Assembly: GCA_003599055.1 (NCBI GenBank)
Contig: QZIM01000013.1
Span: forward strand, 1 to 50,479
Direction of reading: 5' to 3'
DNA: 50,479 bases
DNA from: Candidatus Woesearchaeota archaeon
GTDB lineage: Archaea; Nanobdellota; Nanobdellia; Woesearchaeales; ARS49
Made by a program: the position numbers and the translations under genes. The stretch's first letter is position 1, and each line of letters starts with the position of its first letter. This document shows positions 17,902 through 45,185 of this stretch, in pieces. The notes beneath the pieces are model-generated. The model did no database searches and was not told the DNA's origin. It saw only the letters and a list, made by a program, of their open reading frames with translations.

Positions 17902-20637
17902 TTACTCCTCTCCGTCAACAATACGTTTCACATTGATTTTTCCGCTCTCGGAACGCGCAACATCAACCCCGTCCTCACCGTAGGAGAACTGGATGATTCT
18001 GCCTGACGCGTCGCGCACCGTGCCGTCATACTCCACCTTTAAGTCCTGCATTGCATTTGCCAAACGGCGGTACAAATAACCGGACTTTGGCGTACGGAGC
18101 GCAGTGTCCATCAGCGCATCACGGCCGGTAATCGCCTGGAAGAAAAACTCCTTCGGATTAATGCCCTGCTTGAAGCTGTGCATAATAAAGCCGCGCGCCT
18201 CAGGCGAGAGGTCGCCATCCTTAAAGCAGCTCAAGGTTCGCCCGCGATATCCCTTCTCGATACGCTTGCCCCGCATTGCCTGCTGGCCGACACACGCGCT
18301 CATCTGAATGAGCGACAAAATGCTTCCACGGGCACCGGACAAAATCATCACGGCCGCCTGATTCTCATCATTCACGAAGCCCTTGATAATCTGGCCGCAG
18401 CCGTTACGCGCCTTGTTCAGCCGCTCCAAAATCTTGAGCTCAAGCGTCTCACGCATCGTGCGGCCCGGGAACACCTCAAGCTCGCCCTTCTGGAACAGCG
18501 CAATCATCTGCGCCACATCCTCTTCCGCCTGGCGGAGAAGCTGGTCGATTTGCTCGCGCGCCTCAGACGGCAAGTCCTCATCAGCAATGCCCGTACTGAA
18601 ACCGCTGTGGAACAAATGCTCAATACCAAGGCGGAAAATCTGGTGCAGCATCTTGATCGTGCGCTCAGGACCATACTGCTTGTGCAGGTTGCGCAGCAAC
18701 AGGCCTTCACCCTCACCGCCGATTGCCTTGGTGTCAATCGTCCCTTCAACCAACTGGCCCTTCTTAATCACGACCGGCTCACCCGTTCGCGACTGGCCCT
18801 GATAGTCAAAGTCCTGCGGAATCAGCGCGCTGAACACATCCTTTCCGGACACTTTCTTCTTGCCCGTGATTCTGCTGAAATCAGTCACGCCGACCGCTGC
18901 AAGCAAAGCGCACGCGCGCTCAATTGGCATCTCCTTTACCTTTGAGAGCAAATAGTTGCCGCTGATAGCATCCTGAATGCAGCCGATAACGGAAAGGCCG
19001 TACCTTGGCGAAATAAGCTGAGTTTGAACCTCCATCAAAATCTCTGCTTCCGCACGAGACTCCTCGGTTTGCGGAATGTGCAGGTTCATCTCATCACCGT
19101 CAAAGTCCGCATTATACGGGTTACACACCGCAGGATTGAGACGCAGCGTCCTTCCCGGAAGCACACGCACCTTGTGGCACATCATACTCATCCTGTGCAG
19201 TGACGGCTGACGGTTGAAAATCGCAATGTCACCATCCATCAAATGACGCTCAACCACATATCCCGGCTGAAGCTCTTCAATCGTCGCCTCCTTTGTCTCT
19301 TCCGTAATACGCTTCTTCTTCCCATCAGGGCGGACGACATAATTGGAACCCGGGTACGCAGTCGGACCGTTCTGCACGAACTTCTTGAGGTACGCCATAT
19401 TCCACTCATTCACCGTCTCGGGAACCGTGAGCTTCATTGCAATCACTTTCGGAACACCAACCTCGTCAATTGCAATCATCGGGTCAGGACTAATCACCGT
19501 ACGCGCACAGAAGTTCGTACGCTTACCCGCCAAGTTGTGACGAATGCGCCCTTCCTTACTCTTAATACGCTCCGTAATCGTCTTGAGCGGCTGGCCGGAA
19601 CGGTGCCTTGCCGGCGGAAGCTGCGCAATACTATTATCAAAGAACGTTGTCACGTGATACTGCAAAAGGTCCCAGAGGTCCTCAATGATGATTTCCGGCG
19701 CACCCGCGTTAATATTTTCAAACAAGCGCTGGTTGATACGCACAATGTCACCGAGCTTGTGCGTCAGGTCATCTTCAGAACGCTCACCGGTCTCGAGCGT
19801 AATTGACGGGCGAACTGTCACGGGCGGAATTGCCAAAATCGTCATAACCATCCATTCCGGCCTTGCCGTCTTTGGGTTCAATCCCCACAATTCAATATCC
19901 TCATCAGGAATCTTCTCAAGGCGCGCGCGCACTTCAATCGGGCTGATTCTTCGGTCCGCCTCCATAAACGTGGTCGGCTTCTCAATTGAAACTTTTACCT
20001 GCTTTGCCTTGCAATGCGGGCACTTTCCGCCAAGCCGTCCGCCCTCAATTAGCGCCTTCACCGCGATTCTTCGCGCTTCCGGACCTTCCTCACGCTCAAT
20101 CTTTTCCAAATGCGACTTTGCCTTGCCCCACTTATCCGGATGAATCATCAAACGGCTGCACTCCTTGCACGTTGCACGCAAGAGCAAATGAATAATGCGG
20201 GCAAACTTCACGTGAATCACCGGACGCGCAAGCTCAATGTAGCCAAAGTGGCCAATACACTCCTTAAGCTTACTTCCGCACGTCTTGCAGCGAAGACCCG
20301 GGTCAATAACACCCAAACGAACATCCATCAGGCCACCGTCAACCGGATAGCCCTCCTTATCGTACAGTTCAGGCGTCACAATCTTCGCGCTCGCCATCTT
20401 CTTAATCATCTTCGGCGACAACACACCAAACACAACACTTGAAACCTGCTTGTACACGTAATGCTGAATTGATTCCATACGCTCACGCGAGAACTGCGTC
20501 TTATCGAGCTGCTTTACTTCCGGAACGGCATCTACAGGAGCGGCCTCCTGAGGAGCTTCCTTTGGCGTTTCCACCTGCTCAACCGCCTCACTTTGCCCTG
20601 ATTCCTGTGATTCAACGTCTTTCTTCTTGCGCGGCAT
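17902..20637 (-). CDS. rpoA1: RNA polymerase subunit A' (Rpo1N)
   Basis: Product is 911 residues. Catalytic Mg-binding motif [14 protein letters not shown] lies near residue 508. Zinc sites: [16 protein letters not shown] (about 115-130) and the CKEC / CPHC pair. RxxLxGKR-type rudder region: [20 protein letters not shown]. It has an acidic, Pro/Glu-rich N-terminal extension of about 45 residues (after [16 protein letters not shown]) that ordinary A' subunits lack; the conserved part begins near [25 protein letters not shown] precedes the ATG, 12 nt after rpoB1. Confidence 0.96.
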
Positions 20638-34869: not shown

Positions 34870-34962
34870 AAAAAAATACAGCACGGGAACGTATTTAAGT
34901 TTTGTGATAGTGGAAAAACGGCACGTTTATAAATTGACTTCACCAATATGCTCCTGAAAAAG

Positions 34963-35466
34963 ATGGATGTTCGCATTAACGTTGAGAAAAAACACCTGTA
35001 CGGGTTTGCCGCATTCACCCTTCTTCTTGCAAGCGCGCTCCTCACTGTTGCATTCGGAACAGATAACCCTGCAGTCTTTGGTCACAGCGCACTTGAACTC
35101 ATTGTGAACTCATCAAGCATTGTTGACGGGAGCATCCAGGGAGCCGATATCGGCACCAACGCAATCGGCGCCGCACAAATCGACAGCACATCCCTTGCCA
35201 GCGAATGCACCAGCATCACCGGAGGGGCGGGGCTTTGCGACGGAAGCGATGCGGATTCAATCGGAATATCAAGCTGTTCACGATTCAGCGGAAGCCCAAG
35301 CGCAAGCTGCGGCGGAAGCGAGCGCCTCACCGGCGGAGGGTGCAGTTGCCCGGGCGGCGCAGTCGTTTCCCAAACATTCAGCACCCCTGCAGGAAACCTT
35401 GGCGGCGGACTTACCTGCACGTGCACGGCAGGAGCCGCAACCGCAGACGTTATGTGCTGCTCCTAA
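34963..35466 (+). CDS. secreted/surface protein, AFGxxNPAVxGHS family (member 2)
   Basis: Product is 167 residues. Start MDVRINVEKKHLYGFAAF, one TM segment to about residue 28, then AFGTDNPAVFGHSALELIV, the shortest and least conserved version of the motif (SALE for SGGE). The Cys-rich C-terminal half (CSRFSGSPSASCGGSERL, GGGCSCPGG, LTCTCTAGAATADVMCCS) has the spacing of exported beta-domains with paired disulfides. ATG at 34963 is used by analogy with siblings and because TATA TTTATAAAT (34926-34933) predicts a start near 34956. Convergent with nfo, four-base overlap. Confidence 0.7.
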   Translation: MDVRINVEKKHLYGFAAFTLLLASALLTVAFGTDNPAVFGHSALELIVNSSSIVDGSIQGADIGTNAIGAAQIDSTSLASECTSITGGAGLCDGSDADSIGISSCSRFSGSPSASCGGSERLTGGGCSCPGGAVVSQTFSTPAGNLGGGLTCTCTAGAATADVMCCS

Positions 35467-36327: not shown

Positions 36328-36912
36328 TCAACACGCAGCGGCGCTTACCCTGTTGAGCCGCTCAATACGCCCGCTACTGCAGGTGAGAATCAAGTCAAAC
36401 GGACCCGGCGCAACACACCCATCGCACGTCCCGTCCGCACAGCTGTCTTTTGAGCAAACATTTCCACCCGGAATATCCAGACAAATATCCGCATTTGAAC
36501 TTGAGCCCACGTTTTGACAAAGCGCGGCAAATGTCGCAAAAGTCACTGTACCCAGCGAAGACTCATCAATCTCGGTCCCGCCAATACAATTCGTGCAGGA
36601 CAAGTCATTTGCCGTCGGCCAATTAAACGAGCCCTCCGCAATCTGGCCCGAACCCAAACAGTCAGTACACGAAACACCCGACGCGCTTCCCGCAGTCGTC
36701 GCAAAATTCGCATTCGTCGCGGCGCCCGCAGTAAGACTTGGCGCGCTTCCCGAAAGCCCCGCAACATCAATCTCGCCCCCGCTATGCCCAAACACCGCAG
36801 GATTATTCGTCCCAAACGCATTTGCAAACAGCACAAGAGAAAACAAAACCAGCGCCCCTGAAAAAAGAAACGCGTGATGCCGCTTAACCGTTATTTCAAT
36901 CTTCATATTCAT
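36328..36912 (-). CDS. secreted/surface protein, AFGxxNPAVxGHS family (member 3)
   Basis: Product is 194 residues. MNMKIEITVKRHHAFLFSGA, TM segment to about residue 32, then AFGTNNPAVFGHSGGEIDV, GLSGSAPSLTAGAATNANFA: almost identical to member 1 over this block. Then cysteine pairs (SCTDCLGSG, SCTNCIGGTEID, NVCSKDSCADGTCDGC) and a final VSAAAC. GGAG precedes three close ATGs (36915, 36912, 36906); the start is uncertain by two codons. Downstream of member 4 by 18 nt, so co-transcribed. Confidence 0.72.
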   Translation of the reverse strand: MNMKIEITVKRHHAFLFSGALVLFSLVLFANAFGTNNPAVFGHSGGEIDVAGLSGSAPSLTAGAATNANFATTAGSASGVSCTDCLGSGQIAEGSFNWPTANDLSCTNCIGGTEIDESSLGTVTFATFAALCQNVGSSSNADICLDIPGGNVCSKDSCADGTCDGCVAPGPFDLILTCSSGRIERLNRVSAAAC

Positions 36913-36930
36913 CATTCTCCACTGAAATCA

Positions 36931-37608
36931 TCACGGAATCCTAAAACCAGTATCCGCGGAATTTCCGATACCCGCACACGTACTTGCCGCATCAATCGTC
37001 AGGATACCCGAGCCCGCACCTCCAACATTACACCGCCGGACAACCGTTGCACCACTGCTTGCCGCAATCGTACTTGTTGCAGTGATCGTACTTGAAACCG
37101 CAAGCGCAGCGAAAACATCCACTCCGCCCCCTCCTTCCCGAATGCGCATCGAATTTATCCCGCCCGTTGCATCCCTAAAAATTAAGTTTCCGTTGTTAAT
37201 TGAATTATCAACACGAATGCTGAACTGCCTGCCTGCATTTGTCAGAAGAATCTCGCGCGACAAACCACCACCCGCACTGCCAAGAGATAAGTCGTCACTG
37301 TTTATCGCAATTGAAGAACTGTCCGAATTTTGCAGTCCATCCACATCAATTGTCCCGCAGTTCTGGTCATCACACTGCGTATTCGTATCCGTATCAGCGT
37401 CTGCTGCGCACACAAGTGCACCCGCACCGTCAACCGTCAACTTCTGCGTGCCCGGACAGGTTGTTCCCTGAAGCTCCCCTACCGTATGGCCGAGCACTGC
37501 AGGATTCGTTCCGCCAAATGCGATAACCAAAACACTGCCCAAGGTAAGAACAGCAACTAAAAGAAAGACCAGCATATGCCTCTTTTCAATCCTTATCTGA
37601 ACAGCCAT
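36931..37608 (-). CDS. secreted/surface protein, AFGxxNPAVxGHT family (member 4)
   Basis: Product is 225 residues. MAVQIRIEKRHMLVFLLVAV, one TM segment to about residue 28, motif AFGGTNPAVLGHTVGELQG, then a thrombospondin-type-3-like acidic patch ALVCAADADTDTNTQCDDQN that could bind calcium, and a beta-rich, Gly/Ser/Thr-rich fibre-like second half (FRDATGGINSMRIREGGGG, STITATSTIAASSGATV). GAGG before ATG. Its TATA GCTTAAATAGG overlaps the stop codon of the lipoprotein gene upstream. Confidence 0.7.
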   Translation of the reverse strand: MAVQIRIEKRHMLVFLLVAVLTLGSVLVIAFGGTNPAVLGHTVGELQGTTCPGTQKLTVDGAGALVCAADADTDTNTQCDDQNCGTIDVDGLQNSDSSSIAINSDDLSLGSAGGGLSREILLTNAGRQFSIRVDNSINNGNLIFRDATGGINSMRIREGGGGVDVFAALAVSSTITATSTIAASSGATVVRRCNVGGAGSGILTIDAASTCAGIGNSADTGFRIP

Positions 37609-38560: not shown

Positions 38561-41500
38561 TCACCGTTCTTTTTTCCGCTTTCTTTTACTATTTTCCAAA
38601 CTGCCAATTTCGCTCTGCCAGCGACGGTCGAATTCCCTAAGAACGCGCTCAGATTCGCTGAGCACCCTTTCCGTTGAGCTTCGCCGCGGATAGAACGAAA
38701 CCGCAAGCAACGCCGCTACTGCAGCCAACATAATCAATCCAACCCTGCCATAGGCAAACACCCTCTTCGGCAGTTCTTCTAACACAACGATTCCGCCTTC
38801 TGAATTTTCCTCCTGGCTCAACTCTGCACCCGACGGCACAGCATCAGATACTGCCTTGCCCTGCTCAGTTATTCGAACAGGCTTATCCGCAAACGGAACC
38901 TGAACCCCTGCTTGGTGCAACTTGACTACGCGAAGCACTGCCCTGCGCTGGTACACATACAGCACATCAACCGCAAGGTCATCCCTCCCGTCATCATCAA
39001 GGTCAAAACGAGCCCCCTCGCGAGCCAAAATCATCGCCTCCTTTGGCGCACTTGCAACACGCACAAGCACCCGGTCCGCCAAAACACTCACCACCGTGAC
39101 AGAATGCTCAGCGCCCGCAAAGTCAAAAACAACCCGCTCATTATTCGTCATCGGAGAAGTCACCAGAACCTCAGAAGACATCACCTGATCGCGAATGACT
39201 GCCCGCCCCGGACCTGCGCCTCCTCCGCCCCCGCCCCCTGAAACGGCCGGTGATGCACCGATGGATGAGAGCACAACCGGACACGCAATCGTTTGGCTCC
39301 CCGAAATAACAACCCCTGATGAACACACCCCGTTCACAACCGTCGCATTCACTACCTGCAACCCGCCAACCGATGAATTGATTACCGAACTATTTACCAC
39401 CGAACCCGAACCCACCGACGAATTCTGCATCGACGAATTCGCAACAGTGCCCCCCGCCACTGAGCCATTAGTCACATTCGAATCAGCAACCGTTCCGCCC
39501 GACAGTATTGAATCAGCGACTGACGCATTTTGAACCGTGCCGTTCACCGAACTGTTCGTCACCGACGAATTTATCACCGTGCCATCAACCGTGCTGTTCA
39601 CCACCGTACTGTTCCTCACCAACCCCGCCGCGGTTGAATCTTCCAAAGAGCTGTTCGTCACGTTTGCATTTCCCACCGAACTGTTCGTCACCGAAGAATT
39701 CACCACTTCGCTCCCGCTCAAACTCCCGTTAACCACGGACGAATCCGTGACATTTGAACCCGCCACAGTCCCGTTTGTTACCGAACTGTTTGTCACGTTT
39801 GATTCAGACAAGCTTACATTCACAACCGAGCCGTTATCCACTGCCGAATTCAGGCACGAACCGCCAAGCTCAACACCGTTTACAACCGTACAATTCGTGT
39901 TTGTTGCGCCCGTTACCGTACTGTTCATAATAGTGCTATTCACCTTCGTCGAGTTCACAATACTTGAGCCTGACGCATTCACACCCTCAAGAGAACTGTT
40001 CTCAACATACGAGCCGGACAAAACCGAATCCGCGCAGGACGCATTGAGCTCAACCGAACTCATAACCGAACAATTCACGTTGATTGAGCCATTCACCGTT
40101 GAGCTGATTATTGTGCTGTTCGTTTTTGACGAATTACTGATGTTTGAACCCGAAACAAACGAGCCCGGCAATGACGACCCGAAGACCGCGCTCGTCACCG
40201 TCGTGTTCTCCGACACGTTCAGAACGAAAGACGAGCCCGTGCCGTTTTGGAACGCCAAACTTGCATTATTCACAAGAACCGACCCGTTATTGAGCGCCCC
40301 CGCAACCTGCACCGTGATATTGATTACAACCACCTGAGACTGGTTAATGTCGCCGAGTGACCACGTGTTGTTTGTCCCATTGTCCGGCGCAGGAGACGCG
40401 TTCAGGAAAAGCACACTCTCAGAATACGCCTCAACCACCGTACTGTTAAACGCTGTCCCGTCCGTCACGTTCACCGTAAGCGCATACGTCAGGTTTGCCT
40501 CGGCAGCAACAGGGTCAGAAGAATCAGATTTTGCAAATGAAGCGTTCGTTCCCTGCTCAATTGATGAATACGACGTAAAGGAGGACACGTTAAAGACAAA
40601 CACCCCTCCCGCAAAGCTTATTTCCACACACTTCGGAACATCACAGTTTGCAAAAACACCATCATCATCAACATCAACCGTCGGACGAGGATTGCCAAAA
40701 ACAATACCGCGCAGCGTCACCTGCGCCGAATCATTCAGGAAAGAAACCGCAGAACTGTTGAGAAACGCACGGTTCAGGGAAACATTCAGAACAGACTTAT
40801 TCACCGCCGCACCTGCAGGGACGGAAACTCCCGGAACAACCTGAATCGAGCCATTACCATCCCAAAAGAGCGTTTGGTTCACCGCGTTCACGCCAACCGT
40901 CACTCCGGAAGAAAGGTAGGTAAAGTTTGAAACGAGCACCGTCTGATAGAGCACATTACCCGCGCTCAGCGTAAGCAATTCGAGCGCAGCAGCAGTATCT
41001 GAAATGAACGTGTTGTTCACCAAAACATTACTGAATGCGGAAACAAACGCAACACCCTGACCGGACACACCCTCCGCCGAAACATTCTGCACCACCGACT
41101 CATTTGCATCACTTAACAATAACGCGCCCCCTCCTGATGAAAACACCATACTGTCCTTTACAAAAGAACCAATCGCCCCCGCAAGCGCAAGACCCGTATC
41201 AGTGAAACTCCAAACAACCGCATCCTGCACAGAGACGTTCTGCGCTCCTGACACCTGTAATCCCGGACTTGCGTTTCCGGTAAGCGAAACATTCGCCACG
41301 GACACATTCAGTGAATTCCCATCAATACGCAAACCGCCAAGCTCCGAAAACGAAGAAACATTCCGTACAAGAGAATGATTCACAGCGGCAAACCATACGC
41401 CATATGAGTCACTAACAGAGGCATTCACCTGACTGAACACACAATTCCTCACGGAAACATTTGCCGCCTGCGTTGCGTTCACCCCTGCACCCGCAAACTG

Positions 41501-42658
41501 ATTTGCATACGAGACCGTAAAGCCCGCACAATCAAGGTCAACTCCCGACGAGACAAAAAGAGCAGTTGCAGGACAAGATACATTACCCGCAAGAATCGTA
41601 TCTTCACTAATAACCGCTCCGCACTCGGGAATCAGCATCGCGCCGCTACCCGTCACATTATCAATACGAAACTCGCCGCCATCAACACGAACGGTGATTC
41701 CGCCGATTACCTGCGGGAACGTTCCTGTGAAGTTCACACTGTTCGTACACGACCCGTTCACTTCCTCAAGACGTGTTGCATTGGGACACACACGAACACC
41801 CAACGCTGCAAGCGCAGTCCTGTTCAGGAACAGAGTATGATTGAGCTGAGCGCCCAACACCCCTGACACATTCACCGCAACCGCAGTCTCGTTAAACTCA
41901 ACACGCAACTCAGATGCATTCACCGTCTCTTGATTGAACAAACCGACAAACGCAACATGCCTGCGGTTATCCGTCGAATTCACATACGTAATCACCTGCG
42001 TCACATACGAAGGCTCAGTCACATTTGCCAGCGTCCCGTTCACCGACCCATTCGCCACGAGCAAAAATGCCTGCCCTGCATTCGGCTGCACGTACACCGT
42101 CGAGAGCCCCGCAACGGAACAGCACACCGTAATATTGTACCTGCCTGAAGATACACAATCGGAGATATGCCCATTCGTCAGATTTGCAACCGTGTACACG
42201 CACGTCTCAGACGAAAGACACGAACCCTCTCCTGTTTCGTTCACCCTGCACGCAATCGAGTTATTTGACGCGGAAAGATACGCAGAGAAATTGTACGCTG
42301 AAAGCGAAGGCACTTCCGCGTGCGCATTTGTGGTGTTAAAAAGCCGCATAAAGACCGTTCCCGTTGAATTCGTCCCAATCGTGTTGTTCCCGCTCGTATC
42401 CCCGCAGCACACGCTCACCGGATAATTTGACTCATTTGCGAGCTCCATATGCGCATTTGTCATATTCGTTGCGCCGAGCACTTTCGTGTACCCGCCCGGG
42501 CAAGCACCATCCACGAAAGAACAATCAAGATTCCCATTCGGAAGAACGACCAATGCACCCGTGAGCGACGGGCCAAAACGGAACGCGAACACCGCCGCAA
42601 AGAGAACAACAGCCAACGCAAGAACAACCCACTCAACCCTTCGAACTACCAGTTCCAT
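38561..42658 (-). CDS. giant membrane-anchored surface protein with beta-helix and sequon-rich pentapeptide-like solenoid
   Basis: Product is 1365 residues. Order: TM anchor (about 10-30, VEWVVLALAVVLFAAVFAF); Cys repeats of the form NAHxE...VSVCC (about 45-180); linker; right-handed beta-helix (about 340-650, e.g. ANVSVRNCVFSQVNASVSDS); a beta-domain with VVVINITVQVAGALNNGS; a five-residue repeat solenoid (about 825-1125, e.g. SSVTNSSVGNANVTNSSLED) with about three dozen NxS/T sequons; Gly linker near 1140; a domain with DLDDDGRDDLAVDVLY (calcium-like loop); second TM (about 1305-1325) and a basic cytoplasmic tail ending KRKRKKER. TATA at 42692-42702, GAGG six nucleotides before ATG. Likely a glycosylated stalk. 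Function unknown. Confidence 0.82.
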   Translation of the reverse strand: MELVVRRVEWVVLALAVVLFAAVFAFRFGPSLTGALVVLPNGNLDCSFVDGACPGGYTKVLGATNMTNAHMELANESNYPVSVCCGDTSGNNTIGTNSTGTVFMRLFNTTNAHAEVPSLSAYNFSAYLSASNNSIACRVNETGEGSCLSSETCVYTVANLTNGHISDCVSSGRYNITVCCSVAGLSTVYVQPNAGQAFLLVANGSVNGTLANVTEPSYVTQVITYVNSTDNRRHVAFVGLFNQETVNASELRVEFNETAVAVNVSGVLGAQLNHTLFLNRTALAALGVRVCPNATRLEEVNGSCTNSVNFTGTFPQVIGGITVRVDGGEFRIDNVTGSGAMLIPECGAVISEDTILAGNVSCPATALFVSSGVDLDCAGFTVSYANQFAGAGVNATQAANVSVRNCVFSQVNASVSDSYGVWFAAVNHSLVRNVSSFSELGGLRIDGNSLNVSVANVSLTGNASPGLQVSGAQNVSVQDAVVWSFTDTGLALAGAIGSFVKDSMVFSSGGGALLLSDANESVVQNVSAEGVSGQGVAFVSAFSNVLVNNTFISDTAAALELLTLSAGNVLYQTVLVSNFTYLSSGVTVGVNAVNQTLFWDGNGSIQVVPGVSVPAGAAVNKSVLNVSLNRAFLNSSAVSFLNDSAQVTLRGIVFGNPRPTVDVDDDGVFANCDVPKCVEISFAGGVFVFNVSSFTSYSSIEQGTNASFAKSDSSDPVAAEANLTYALTVNVTDGTAFNSTVVEAYSESVLFLNASPAPDNGTNNTWSLGDINQSQVVVINITVQVAGALNNGSVLVNNASLAFQNGTGSSFVLNVSENTTVTSAVFGSSLPGSFVSGSNISNSSKTNSTIISSTVNGSINVNCSVMSSVELNASCADSVLSGSYVENSSLEGVNASGSSIVNSTKVNSTIMNSTVTGATNTNCTVVNGVELGGSCLNSAVDNGSVVNVSLSESNVTNSSVTNGTVAGSNVTDSSVVNGSLSGSEVVNSSVTNSSVGNANVTNSSLEDSTAAGLVRNSTVVNSTVDGTVINSSVTNSSVNGTVQNASVADSILSGGTVADSNVTNGSVAGGTVANSSMQNSSVGSGSVVNSSVINSSVGGLQVVNATVVNGVCSSGVVISGSQTIACPVVLSSIGASPAVSGGGGGGGAGPGRAVIRDQVMSSEVLVTSPMTNNERVVFDFAGAEHSVTVVSVLADRVLVRVASAPKEAMILAREGARFDLDDDGRDDLAVDVLYVYQRRAVLRVVKLHQAGVQVPFADKPVRITEQGKAVSDAVPSGAELSQEENSEGGIVVLEELPKRVFAYGRVGLIMLAAVAALLAVSFYPRRSSTERVLSESERVLREFDRRWQSEIGSLENSKRKRKKER

Positions 42659-42739: not shown

Positions 42740-43666
42740 TCACCGCAGCACCGCCTGAATCACGCCAGTCTCTTCTCCCGAAGAACACACTGTCTTTGCG
42801 CGGGCAACCACTGCATCACCCCCTGCCTCCCGCCCGGAAAGAGGACGCAAACGGCCGTCGCTTGCAGTCACAAGACGGTCCCCAAATTCAAGCGGCGACC
42901 CATCAGAGCGGAAACAGCGCACTTTTGTAAACTCGTGAACACCCTCAAGCGCAACCGGGAACCAGCCTTCACAACCCGCGTGCCGCCAGTCCTGCGCGTT
43001 ACCGCCAAGCATCAGCTTATTATTCCCCGTGCCGCAGCCCAAATTCAAAATCTGTTCTGCGTGCGTGGTTGCAATACCCACGACTGCAAGCGAAGAATCT
43101 TCCCCGCACCGCTCAAATGCTCCTGACACTGCCGAAATGCAAACGGCGTCTCCCTCTTCCACGCCGCTCACCTGCATCATCTCCGCAAGCGTTGAACAGC
43201 CCGTACAGCTTGAAACCGTAATCGAGCCCATATTGAGCGTCACGCCGTTAAAGCTCACGGAATACAGCGTGCTTCCCCCTGATATACGCTCAAACTGCAG
43301 GGTAGGGTCGCCGCTTCCCGTAATCCGCAAAAAGGTCCCTGAAGAACCCGTATTCCCTATGAAAGAACTGCTTGTCGTCTGCAACGACACCACGTCGCAC
43401 GAAGAATCACCATTACACGCATTTGCCGTCGATGCAGTTGAAGCAGTTGAAGCTGATGATGCACTTGACGCGGACGTCGCAAACCCAACACTCAGGCCAG
43501 GCGCACTCCCTGCGAGCGCCGCAACATCAATCTCGCCGCCGCTGTGCCCAAAAACCGCAGGATTAGCCGTCCCGAAGGCAGTGACAAGAATCGCAGCGAA
43601 CATACCAACAAGTAGCACCAGCAGCACAAAAAAACGGGACTTGGTAATTCTGACTTTGAACTCCAT
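42740..43666 (-). CDS. secreted/surface protein, AFGxxNPAVxGHS family (member 5), fibre-like
   Basis: Product is 308 residues. MEFKVRITKSRFFVLLVLLV, TM to about residue 29, motif AFGTANPAVFGHSGGEIDVA, ALAGSAPGLSVGF, then a Ser/Ala/Thr repeat (SASSASSASTASTASTAN). The second half, from STLAEMMQVSGVEEGDAVCI to AVVGIATTHAEQILNLG and FGDRLVTASDGRLRPL, resembles a domain common near the C-terminus of bacterial and phage fibre-type proteins (LAE...GDVV...VIGV). TATA near 43695-43703. Next gene upstream is member 6, with its own promoter. Confidence 0.72.
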   Translation of the reverse strand: MEFKVRITKSRFFVLLVLLVGMFAAILVTAFGTANPAVFGHSGGEIDVAALAGSAPGLSVGFATSASSASSASTASTASTANACNGDSSCDVVSLQTTSSSFIGNTGSSGTFLRITGSGDPTLQFERISGGSTLYSVSFNGVTLNMGSITVSSCTGCSTLAEMMQVSGVEEGDAVCISAVSGAFERCGEDSSLAVVGIATTHAEQILNLGCGTGNNKLMLGGNAQDWRHAGCEGWFPVALEGVHEFTKVRCFRSDGSPLEFGDRLVTASDGRLRPLSGREAGGDAVVARAKTVCSSGEETGVIQAVLR

Positions 43667-43790: not shown

Positions 43791-45146
43791 TCATACATTA
43801 TTGCTTACGGAACAGCCGCCCGCAGTAAGCGTTCCCGTCACGCGGTTGCCCGTAAACGCGCAGGTCGAAGCGCCCGTCCCGTCCAGATTGCCCGAAATGA
43901 AGTTGCCCGAAACCAGATTACCTGACGTGGACGTCACATCCACACCGCCGCTTGTCACAATGTTGCCGCTGATGGCAACATCATTCCCGTTATTCTGTAT
44001 CCCATTCGTCACGTAATTGCCCGCGATTGTGTTGCTGCCGCCGTTTGTTGTTATCCCGATTGCCGGAGAATTTGATACCACAAAATTTCCCGAGATAACA
44101 TTGTTCCCGTTATTGCCGATAATACCCTCCCCATCAATGCCTCCCCCTCCGCTGCGAATATGATTGCCCGTGACCGTTGCAAACCCCTCCGCCCGAATTG
44201 CCGCGTGCGAACCGCCCGCGAGCGACCAGGCAAGAACAGTATTGCCCACTATCACTGCATTCTGGCCGGATGCAAGGATGCCCTCATCCCCTCCAAGCTG
44301 AACCAAATTCGCCTCCGCAATGCTGCGATCGCCCGAGAGGCTTATTGCAGGGCCTGTCGCAGTCTCAACATAGTTGCCTTTCACAATACCCTCACTCATC
44401 GATATACCCGTATCCGCCGCGCGCACCTGATTATCCGTCACCTGCGCCTCGTTCGCCTGAATACCTGTGCTTGCATTCCCCTCTATCACGTTCGATGCTA
44501 CCGTAAGTTCAGCTGCCCCCGCCGGGTTGAAACTTGATGCAAACGCGAGAATTCCTCTCGTCGCAACATTAGTCACAATCCTGTTTCGGCGAATGACCAT
44601 TGTCCGCGGCTGAACCGGCGTTGTCCCAAGATTATTTACCGAAACAGACGTTCCCTGAACTCCCTGAATGTCAATACCCTCAATGAGCCCGGAAACGTTT
44701 GTAAACACAATTCCATCAAGACCTGTTGCGGAACCCGCACGAATCGCAAAATCCTGCAAACGAACATTCTCAACAACCGTTGTTCCGCCAGCTTGGTCAG
44801 TAATCACATCAATACCGTTTGCCGTTGCCTGCAAAATCGTGCCTGAACCCTGCCCAATGATAGAGATATTACTTGTTACGTTAATAGGACCCGCAATCGT
44901 GTACGTTCCGGGGCCGAGCAGGACTGTCCCTCCGCCCTGCGCGGCAAGCTCATCAATTGCCTGCTGAATCTCCTGCTCAGTTCCAACGTCAACCACGATA
45001 ACAGGACCAACCCCTGCAACCTCCCCCCTGCTGTGCCCCACAAGCGCAGGATTACTCCCGCCAAAGGCAATCACCAGCGGAGCTAAGAGAACAAGCGCGG
45101 CAAGTCCCAATTTTGCAACTCTATGCGGACCTCTTTTCACGAGCAT
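43791..45146 (-). CDS. secreted right-handed beta-helix protein, GHS family (member 6)
   Basis: Product is 451 residues. MLVKRGPHRVAKLGLAALVL, TM to about residue 25, motif AFGGSNPALVGHSRGEVAG, then a pectate-lyase-like parallel beta-helix: TEQEIQQAIDELAAQGGGTV, LLGPGTYTIAGPINVTSNIS, then many coils with N-G-N/D turns (VIEGNASTGIQANEAQVTDN, NGNNVISGNFVVSNSPAIG). Such helices bind or cut polysaccharides; catalytic residues were not identified. TATA GTTTATATAGG (45161-45171). The only member with a long enzyme-like module after the motif. Confidence 0.76.
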   Translation of the reverse strand: MLVKRGPHRVAKLGLAALVLLAPLVIAFGGSNPALVGHSRGEVAGVGPVIVVDVGTEQEIQQAIDELAAQGGGTVLLGPGTYTIAGPINVTSNISIIGQGSGTILQATANGIDVITDQAGGTTVVENVRLQDFAIRAGSATGLDGIVFTNVSGLIEGIDIQGVQGTSVSVNNLGTTPVQPRTMVIRRNRIVTNVATRGILAFASSFNPAGAAELTVASNVIEGNASTGIQANEAQVTDNQVRAADTGISMSEGIVKGNYVETATGPAISLSGDRSIAEANLVQLGGDEGILASGQNAVIVGNTVLAWSLAGGSHAAIRAEGFATVTGNHIRSGGGGIDGEGIIGNNGNNVISGNFVVSNSPAIGITTNGGSNTIAGNYVTNGIQNNGNDVAISGNIVTSGGVDVTSTSGNLVSGNFISGNLDGTGASTCAFTGNRVTGTLTAGGCSVSNNV

Positions 45147-45185
45147 AATACGCGCGAACACCTATATAAACTTACTGCGAAAAAA

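Follow-up and report, generated by a model that had tools for sequence, protein, structure and literature searches.

A sequon-dense five-residue solenoid, probably three-sided, predicted in a large surface protein of a Woesearchaeota archaeon

Pentapeptide-repeat (Rfr) proteins such as QnrB, MfpA and HetL are parallel beta-solenoids with five residues per side and four sides per coil, in which the residues at i-2 and i point inward and the units follow an A(D/N)LxG-type motif. Sugar sites on such a fold are known from SV2, whose luminal domain, a quadrilateral beta-helix of the pentapeptide type, has three N-glycosylation sites that are conserved (PMC5923319), and a solved triangular relative of the pentapeptide solenoid is the bacterial Knotted Solenoid fold, 9RDS and its relatives (PMC13123833). 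TibA and AIDA-I are hyperglycosylated beta-helix rods, and the sugar sites of TibA have a patterned, solenoid-like distribution (PMC4358343). In archaea, the thread subunit of S. acidocaldarius carries five glycans in about 206 residues and forms a glycan-covered filament (PMC9715654), and SlaA has 31 sites in about 1400 residues, or about 2 per 100 (PMC2948927). Both are surface proteins with NxS/T sequons that are modified by AglB. The spruce budworm antifreeze protein is left-handed and ice-binding, and we take its structures 1m8n and 1eww to have 15 residues per coil on three sides of five residues each.

Here we analysed a window of 50,479 nucleotides (the whole stretch of DNA) from the 1.15-Mb draft genome of a Woesearchaeota archaeon, which encodes a surface protein with NxS/T sequons and a predicted solenoid of its own. 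This solenoid has in common with Rfr proteins the five residues per side, the inward i-2 and i, the parallel beta-solenoid architecture and a locally similar structure alphabet, but it shows a three-unit repeat, units of the type S-(S/T/N)-(V/I)-x-N and a predicted extracellular location. It resembles the fourth luminal domain of SV2A/SV2C as an extracellular pentapeptide-type beta-helix with N-glycosylation sites, but that domain is quadrilateral, has three sites where the solenoid has 36 potential ones, and belongs to a eukaryotic transporter (PMC5923319). The autotransporter adhesins TibA, AIDA-I and antigen 43 are surface beta-helix rods as well; TibA and AIDA-I differ in being bacterial, in their longer, irregular coils and in their heptosylation by TibC-family heptosyltransferases. 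Such heptosylation is O-linked, on Ser/Thr, and Pfam found no autotransporter barrel family in the archaeal protein, which is TM-anchored. The Knotted Solenoid differs from the archaeal rod by its trefoil knot, its shortness and its restriction to one bacterial group, and it is not sequon-rich. The sequence-only reading had regarded a glycosylated extracellular pentapeptide solenoid as new, which is too strong in view of SV2 and TibA/AIDA-I (PMC5923319, PMC4358343); what appears to be new is the combination of sequon density, sequon coupling and a five-residue geometry with three sides, and a search of the open-licence literature found no relevant paper on archaeal glycosylated pentapeptide solenoids.

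The protein of 1365 residues is encoded on the reverse strand at positions 38561-42658, as are all of its parts given below, and its layout was derived from the open reading frame, Pfam matches, a TM/composition map and paralogues. An N-terminal TM segment or signal anchor (residues 8-26, 42581..42637; hydropathy 2.61 over 19 residues) is followed by an N-terminal domain with 23 sequons and 12 Cys (residues 35-343, approximate boundaries, 41630..42556), delimited by composition and paralogue identity and common to own-genome paralogues on contigs C1 and C18 (53% and 48% identity). Next come a parallel beta-helix region with 22 sequons (residues 344-705, approximate boundaries, 40544..41629), in which the Pfam Beta_helix match covers residues 442-579 (E 2.6e-10), and a DUF11-like repeat domain with 13 sequons (residues 706-829, 40172..40543). 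In the protein itself, residues 706-829 match no Pfam family; they align with tandem repeats of the paralogues on C4 and C2, and the C4 paralogue matches DUF11. The five-residue solenoid with its 36 sequons occupies residues 830-1122 (39293..40171), predicted as a beta-solenoid of about 19 coils of three units, and it ends in a cap (residues 1112-1137, 39248..39325). Homologous solenoids close with a conserved cap as well, of the type C-xSG-xIxFNGxxFxCPxxLSSI. A Gly-rich linker and a membrane-proximal domain without any sequon (residues 1138-1298, 38765..39247), a C-terminal TM segment (residues 1306-1324, 38687..38743) and a basic tail (residues 1325-1365) complete the protein; linker, membrane-proximal domain, TM segment and tail were read from the TM/composition map. 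Thus the position first proposed for the solenoid, after a beta-helix and between two TM segments, held. The charge of the solenoid is low (14 D/E and 3 K/R in 293 residues), and this weak charge together with export ruled out an acidic DNA mimic.

The stretch pointed out at the start (39222-40190) corresponds to residues 823-1146, and the estimate of about 36 sequons in residues 825-1125 proved exact, as 36 N-x-S/T with x not Pro were counted there. Composition-preserving shuffles of residues 831-1122 gave 13.8 ± 2.8 sequons (n = 2000, maximum 24) against the 36 in the native order. On the repeat this amounts to 12 sequons per 100 residues, compared with approximately 2 glycosylation sites per 100 in SlaA. 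The whole protein contains 94 sequons, none of them C-terminal of residue 1122, and no N-P-S/T; the excess therefore spans the whole ectodomain including the other folds and ends at the membrane-proximal domain. In the solenoid 36 of 42 Asn lie in sequons, compared with 11% in 85 genes without TM segments of the same genome, and these cytoplasmic genes had no excess (102 sequons, 98.5 expected). Codon identity among identical residues at repeat lags of the solenoid gene was about 0.34, the same as in random pairs, and Tandem Repeats Finder found no DNA tandem repeats in the gene, which means that the repeat pattern is old and has been maintained at the protein level; the same two results ruled out that it stems from a recent tandem duplication. 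The protein thus combines what is expected of an AglB N-glycoprotein, an N-terminal TM export signal and NxS/T sequons in the exported part, and judged from its sequence the sequon pattern looks selected for sugar attachment rather than incidental.

The five-residue period was clear in autocorrelation analysis, in which V/I/L/M/F were enriched 2.1-fold at lags 5 and 10 and Asn 2.8-fold at lag 5 and 3.2-fold at lag 15; hydrophobic residues, Asn and Ser/Thr all repeat at lags 5, 10, 15 and onward. With this period, a small residue at i-2 and a hydrophobic residue at i, the solenoid has an Rfr-type register. A register model of 20 solenoids placed the sequon Asn at i-2, i, i-1, i+1 and i+2 in 0, 0, 83, 49 and 228 cases, respectively; the model was trained on the same 20 solenoids, which accounts in part for the scarcity of Asn at i-2 and i, but the coupling described next is free of this circularity. 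Asn at i-1 destroys the sequon that starts at the preceding i+2, and exactly those units gain Ser/Thr at i+1: among the 20 solenoids, Ser/Thr was found at i+1 in 78 of 104 units with Asn at i-1 but in 173 of 542 others (OR 6.4, p 3.6e-16), and with Asp at i-1 in 4/12. In the protein itself Ser/Thr was found at i+1 in 6/6 units with Asn at i-1 versus 12/48. Counting only distinct pentapeptides left the coupling in place (OR 4.3, p 5e-8), and a further homologue set, nearly all from genomes absent from the first one, gave 87/108 versus 99/466 (OR 15, p 7e-31).

Structure prediction was carried out for residues 826-1145 by AlphaFold2 (AF2) with ten homologous regions in the alignment. The model had a mean pLDDT of 81.8, a pTM of 0.78 and 177 residues at 90 or above, with short strands every five residues, and confidence fell below 50 only at the end and over roughly the first 40 residues. 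For a homologue belonging to a second subtype, the pLDDT was 90.4 and the pTM 0.85, with five concordant models. Disorder, which had been named as the outcome that would speak against the fold, was not predicted. AlphaFold2 can yield confident but unrealistic beta-solenoids for perfect repeats (PMC11795689), and because of this tendency the sequence evidence for the predicted fold counts more. In Foldseek searches the best matches by E-value were four-sided pentapeptide proteins, but they superposed poorly (TM 0.13-0.44, rmsd 7-13 Å); the best TM-scores among the matches listed were those of AlgE4 and TSP3 (0.51) and Ag43 (0.44), which we take to be three-sided right-handed beta-helices. These scores are only suggestive of a right-handed coil. 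A viral structure search gave at best an uncharacterised predicted poxvirus protein (TM 0.64). In PDB profile searches the protein's own subtype matched 1m8n best (E 5e-4), followed by 1eww (E 1e-3), both weak and possibly composition-driven, and the type-2 profile matched pentapeptide proteins, both designed and natural ones (E 2e-7 to 3e-6).

Besides the five-residue step, the solenoid has a longer period of 15 residues. Similarity between its five-residue units was raised at lags 3, 6 and 9 (z 4.2) and not at lags 4 and 8 (z -1.0), and 19 homologues gave z 4.8 at lag 3 against z 0.04 at lag 4; when seven homologues of the same subtype were taken alone, lag 3 gave z 3.0, but lags 3, 6 and 9 combined only z 0.5. 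Ordinary pentapeptide proteins of related archaea served as the positive control and peaked at lag 4 (z 3.7), as expected from four-sided coils, and at lag 2, while lag 3 gave z -1.9. A core motif in the solenoid consists of an inward K followed by N (+15), C (+18), E (+25) and C (+30); its first copy lies in residues 845-875 (40034..40126) and its second, exactly 60 residues further, in residues 905-935 (39854..39946). This spacing of inward K, N and C at +30, with C at +18 and E at +25, was identical in all 12 motif copies found (seven proteins), and paired copies were always exactly 60 residues apart (five proteins). With a three-sided coil, K, N and C at spacings of 15 and 15 would lie above one another in a single column. 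Apart from the two K and two E of this K-N-E-C motif, no inward residue of the solenoid is charged. In the first AF2 model long strands begin at segment residues 89, 104 and 119 and at 169, 184, 198 and 212, with spacings of 15 and 14. The number of sides was taken from the sequence and this strand spacing, and on that basis the solenoid is probably three-sided with 15 residues per coil, as in the spruce budworm antifreeze type, and not the four-sided pentapeptide fold with its 20 residues per coil. The last 11 coils (residues approximately 945-1110, 39329..39826) have 1, 12 and 9 sequons on their three sides, and the sequon-poor side holds 12 of 17 Gly (permutation p 0.00025), which would leave the rod sugar-coated on two sides and bare on the Gly-lined third.

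The genome was searched for aglB, whose absence would have counted against glycosylation, and one STT3/AglB was present (E 2.6e-37, about 1015 residues, WWDFG motif); its match to the STT3/PglB core scored 21.6 bits, just under the cut-off of 23. The enzyme (L054:9127-12168, contig C3) has a C-terminal FKBP-type prolyl isomerase domain at residues 908-1011 (E 1.3e-16) and aligns over its full length with homologues in G001, G018 and G016, an oligosaccharyltransferase fused to a folding enzyme; weak matches of the same query in G017, G029 and G049 cover the FKBP-like tail (908-1011) and not STT3. STT3 was present in 50 of 57 related genomes. The coupling was 156/194 in genomes with STT3 versus 9/18 in those without, and the share of Asn in sequons 64% versus 44%, with only four genomes on the negative side. 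Two of these, G017 and G029, are near-complete and have no detectable STT3, yet they retain solenoids with sequons, and the coupling in G017 alone was 5/7. The missing STT3 of G003 (94% complete) and G025 (65%) may reflect incompleteness; G018, a sister genome in the genus of G003, has a full AglB.

The genome encodes further giant surface proteins, the longest open frame being 4445 residues, that share the N-terminal domain, beta-helix units or DUF11-like repeats with the protein described here. Their open reading frames of 2289-4445 residues, with beta-helix or DUF11 repeats, lie on contigs C1, C2, C4, C9, C22, C23 and C26, contain 4-7 sequons per 100 residues and take up a large share of the 1.15 Mb. 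The solenoid module itself also occurs on C1, C18 and C26. Within the phylum, 39 of 279 genomes gave profile matches, the weakest of which may be chance or ordinary repeats; the open frames concerned reach 6057 residues. Two subtypes are seen, marked by the K-N-E-C motif and by VDPS-x-TGS, respectively. Searching the genome contigs with the full protein returned no named homologues. A Nup98-96 autopeptidase Pfam match (E 2.1e-9) was seen at residues 2290-2396 of the giant archaeal surface protein L046, and a 2726-residue frame on G325:C57 (L168) has many Cys-rich solenoid-like stretches, possibly a disulfide-rich form of the module. Around the solenoid gene, four small exported proteins (34948-35466 on the forward strand; 36328-36915, 36931-37608 and 42740-43666 on the reverse strand) share an N-terminal TM segment and a leader of the type AFGTxNPAVFGHSxGEI; they had no Pfam match and may be paralogues that serve as surface proteins or filament subunits. 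A NosD-like beta-helix protein of 456 residues (43791-45161, reverse strand, E 2.6e-6) is also nearby, and the RNA polymerase subunit encoded in the window (17902-20637, reverse strand) is 83% identical to a Candidatus Woesearchaeota archaeon subunit, which places the genome among the DPANN archaea.

The reading of a pentapeptide solenoid bearing glycans can be kept in part: the five-residue solenoid, the outward sequons, the TM segments at both ends and AglB stood, and the assignment to the classical Rfr family did not. A secreted, N-glycosylated Rfr fold with four sides and 20 residues per coil would account for the register with inward i-2 and i, for the rank of pentapeptide proteins in Foldseek by E-value and for the type-2 profile matches, and SV2 provides a luminal N-glycosylated example. 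We consider it unlikely, since the unit similarity peaks at three where ordinary pentapeptide proteins peak at four, the inward K-N-C column has its 15 and 15 spacing in every copy, the superpositions are poor, and PF00805 had no match anywhere in the genome; on the 1365-residue protein Pentapeptide_4 (PF13599) reached E 0.09 and 13.2 bits against a cut-off of 38, and NCBIfam HetL 13.9 against 260. The classical four-sided protein was likewise not supported by the unit-lag analysis with its pentapeptide control. A disordered, mucin-like linker rich in S/T/N, glycosylated or not, with an artefactual AlphaFold solenoid, would fit the low-complexity composition and the known over-prediction of repeat beta-solenoids (PMC11795689). 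It is very improbable against the strict alternation of inward and outward residues, the conserved K-N-E-C spacing and 60-residue motif distance in five proteins, the conserved cap, the old repeats under protein-level constraint, and the same kind of fold obtained in five concordant models from another alignment and homologue.

The sequons could also be unused on a real solenoid, with Asn, Ser and Thr serving strand packing, turn geometry or Asn ladders. Sequons arise almost automatically where a turn Asn at i+2 precedes S at i-2 and S/T at i-1, ordinary pentapeptide proteins show a weak tendency for Ser/Thr at i+1 after Asn at i-1 (OR 1.7), and the module is kept in two genomes without detectable STT3; but the coupling is far above that of ordinary pentapeptide proteins and fails for Asp, the excess extends across the other ectodomain folds and stops at the membrane-proximal domain with none in cytoplasmic genes, and AglB is present, so that we regard this explanation as decidedly unlikely. 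Binding of a regular surface such as ice, in the manner of the 15-residue coils of the spruce budworm antifreeze protein, has the 1m8n and 1eww profile matches in its favour, weak and possibly composition-driven as they are. Across the homologues T at i-1 gave S/T at i+1 in 85/267, not above background and thus no T-x-T array for ice binding, and a flat face would be hidden by glycans; this explanation is extremely improbable.

We therefore favour, as the likely reading, an extracellular three-sided solenoid that forms the AglB-glycosylated stiff stalk of a giant surface glycoprotein. The N-terminal TM signal would export the protein, which stays membrane-anchored, and residues 830-1122 would fold into a parallel beta-solenoid of about 19 coils with three five-residue sides each, its core filled by small residues at i-2 (S/A/G) and hydrophobic ones at i (V/I/L). 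Outward Asn at i+2 (then S-S/T) and at i-1 (then V-T) would be kept as AglB sequons, and the organism's own AglB would N-glycosylate many of them after export. In the C-terminal half most of these glycans would lie on two sides, the third, Gly-rich side being nearly sequon-free; where sites are five residues apart, steric hindrance may make it difficult to occupy all of them. With 19 coils at 4.8 Å each, the rod would measure about 9 nm, and we infer that such a glycan-coated stalk holds the N-terminal domain and the beta-helix at a distance from the membrane and shields the protein. A wider proposal, which we put forward tentatively as possible rather than probable, is a separate DPANN solenoid class with three sides of five residues, an inward K-N-E-C lock in pairs 60 residues apart in one subtype, an AglB-selected surface with a near-continuous two-sided glycan ladder and a bare Gly side for contacts.

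If the favoured reading is true, a single protein sequence fixes a glycan position roughly every eight residues along a rigid rod. This would amount to a glycan ladder that can be programmed genetically, and it would test the density limit of an archaeal oligosaccharyltransferase on a repeat. A three-sided five-residue solenoid would also join a group whose best-known form is the four-sided pentapeptide fold. For the Woesearchaeota, it would give a first idea of how their giant surface proteins look, and these proteins are candidates for contact with partner cells, a poorly understood process.
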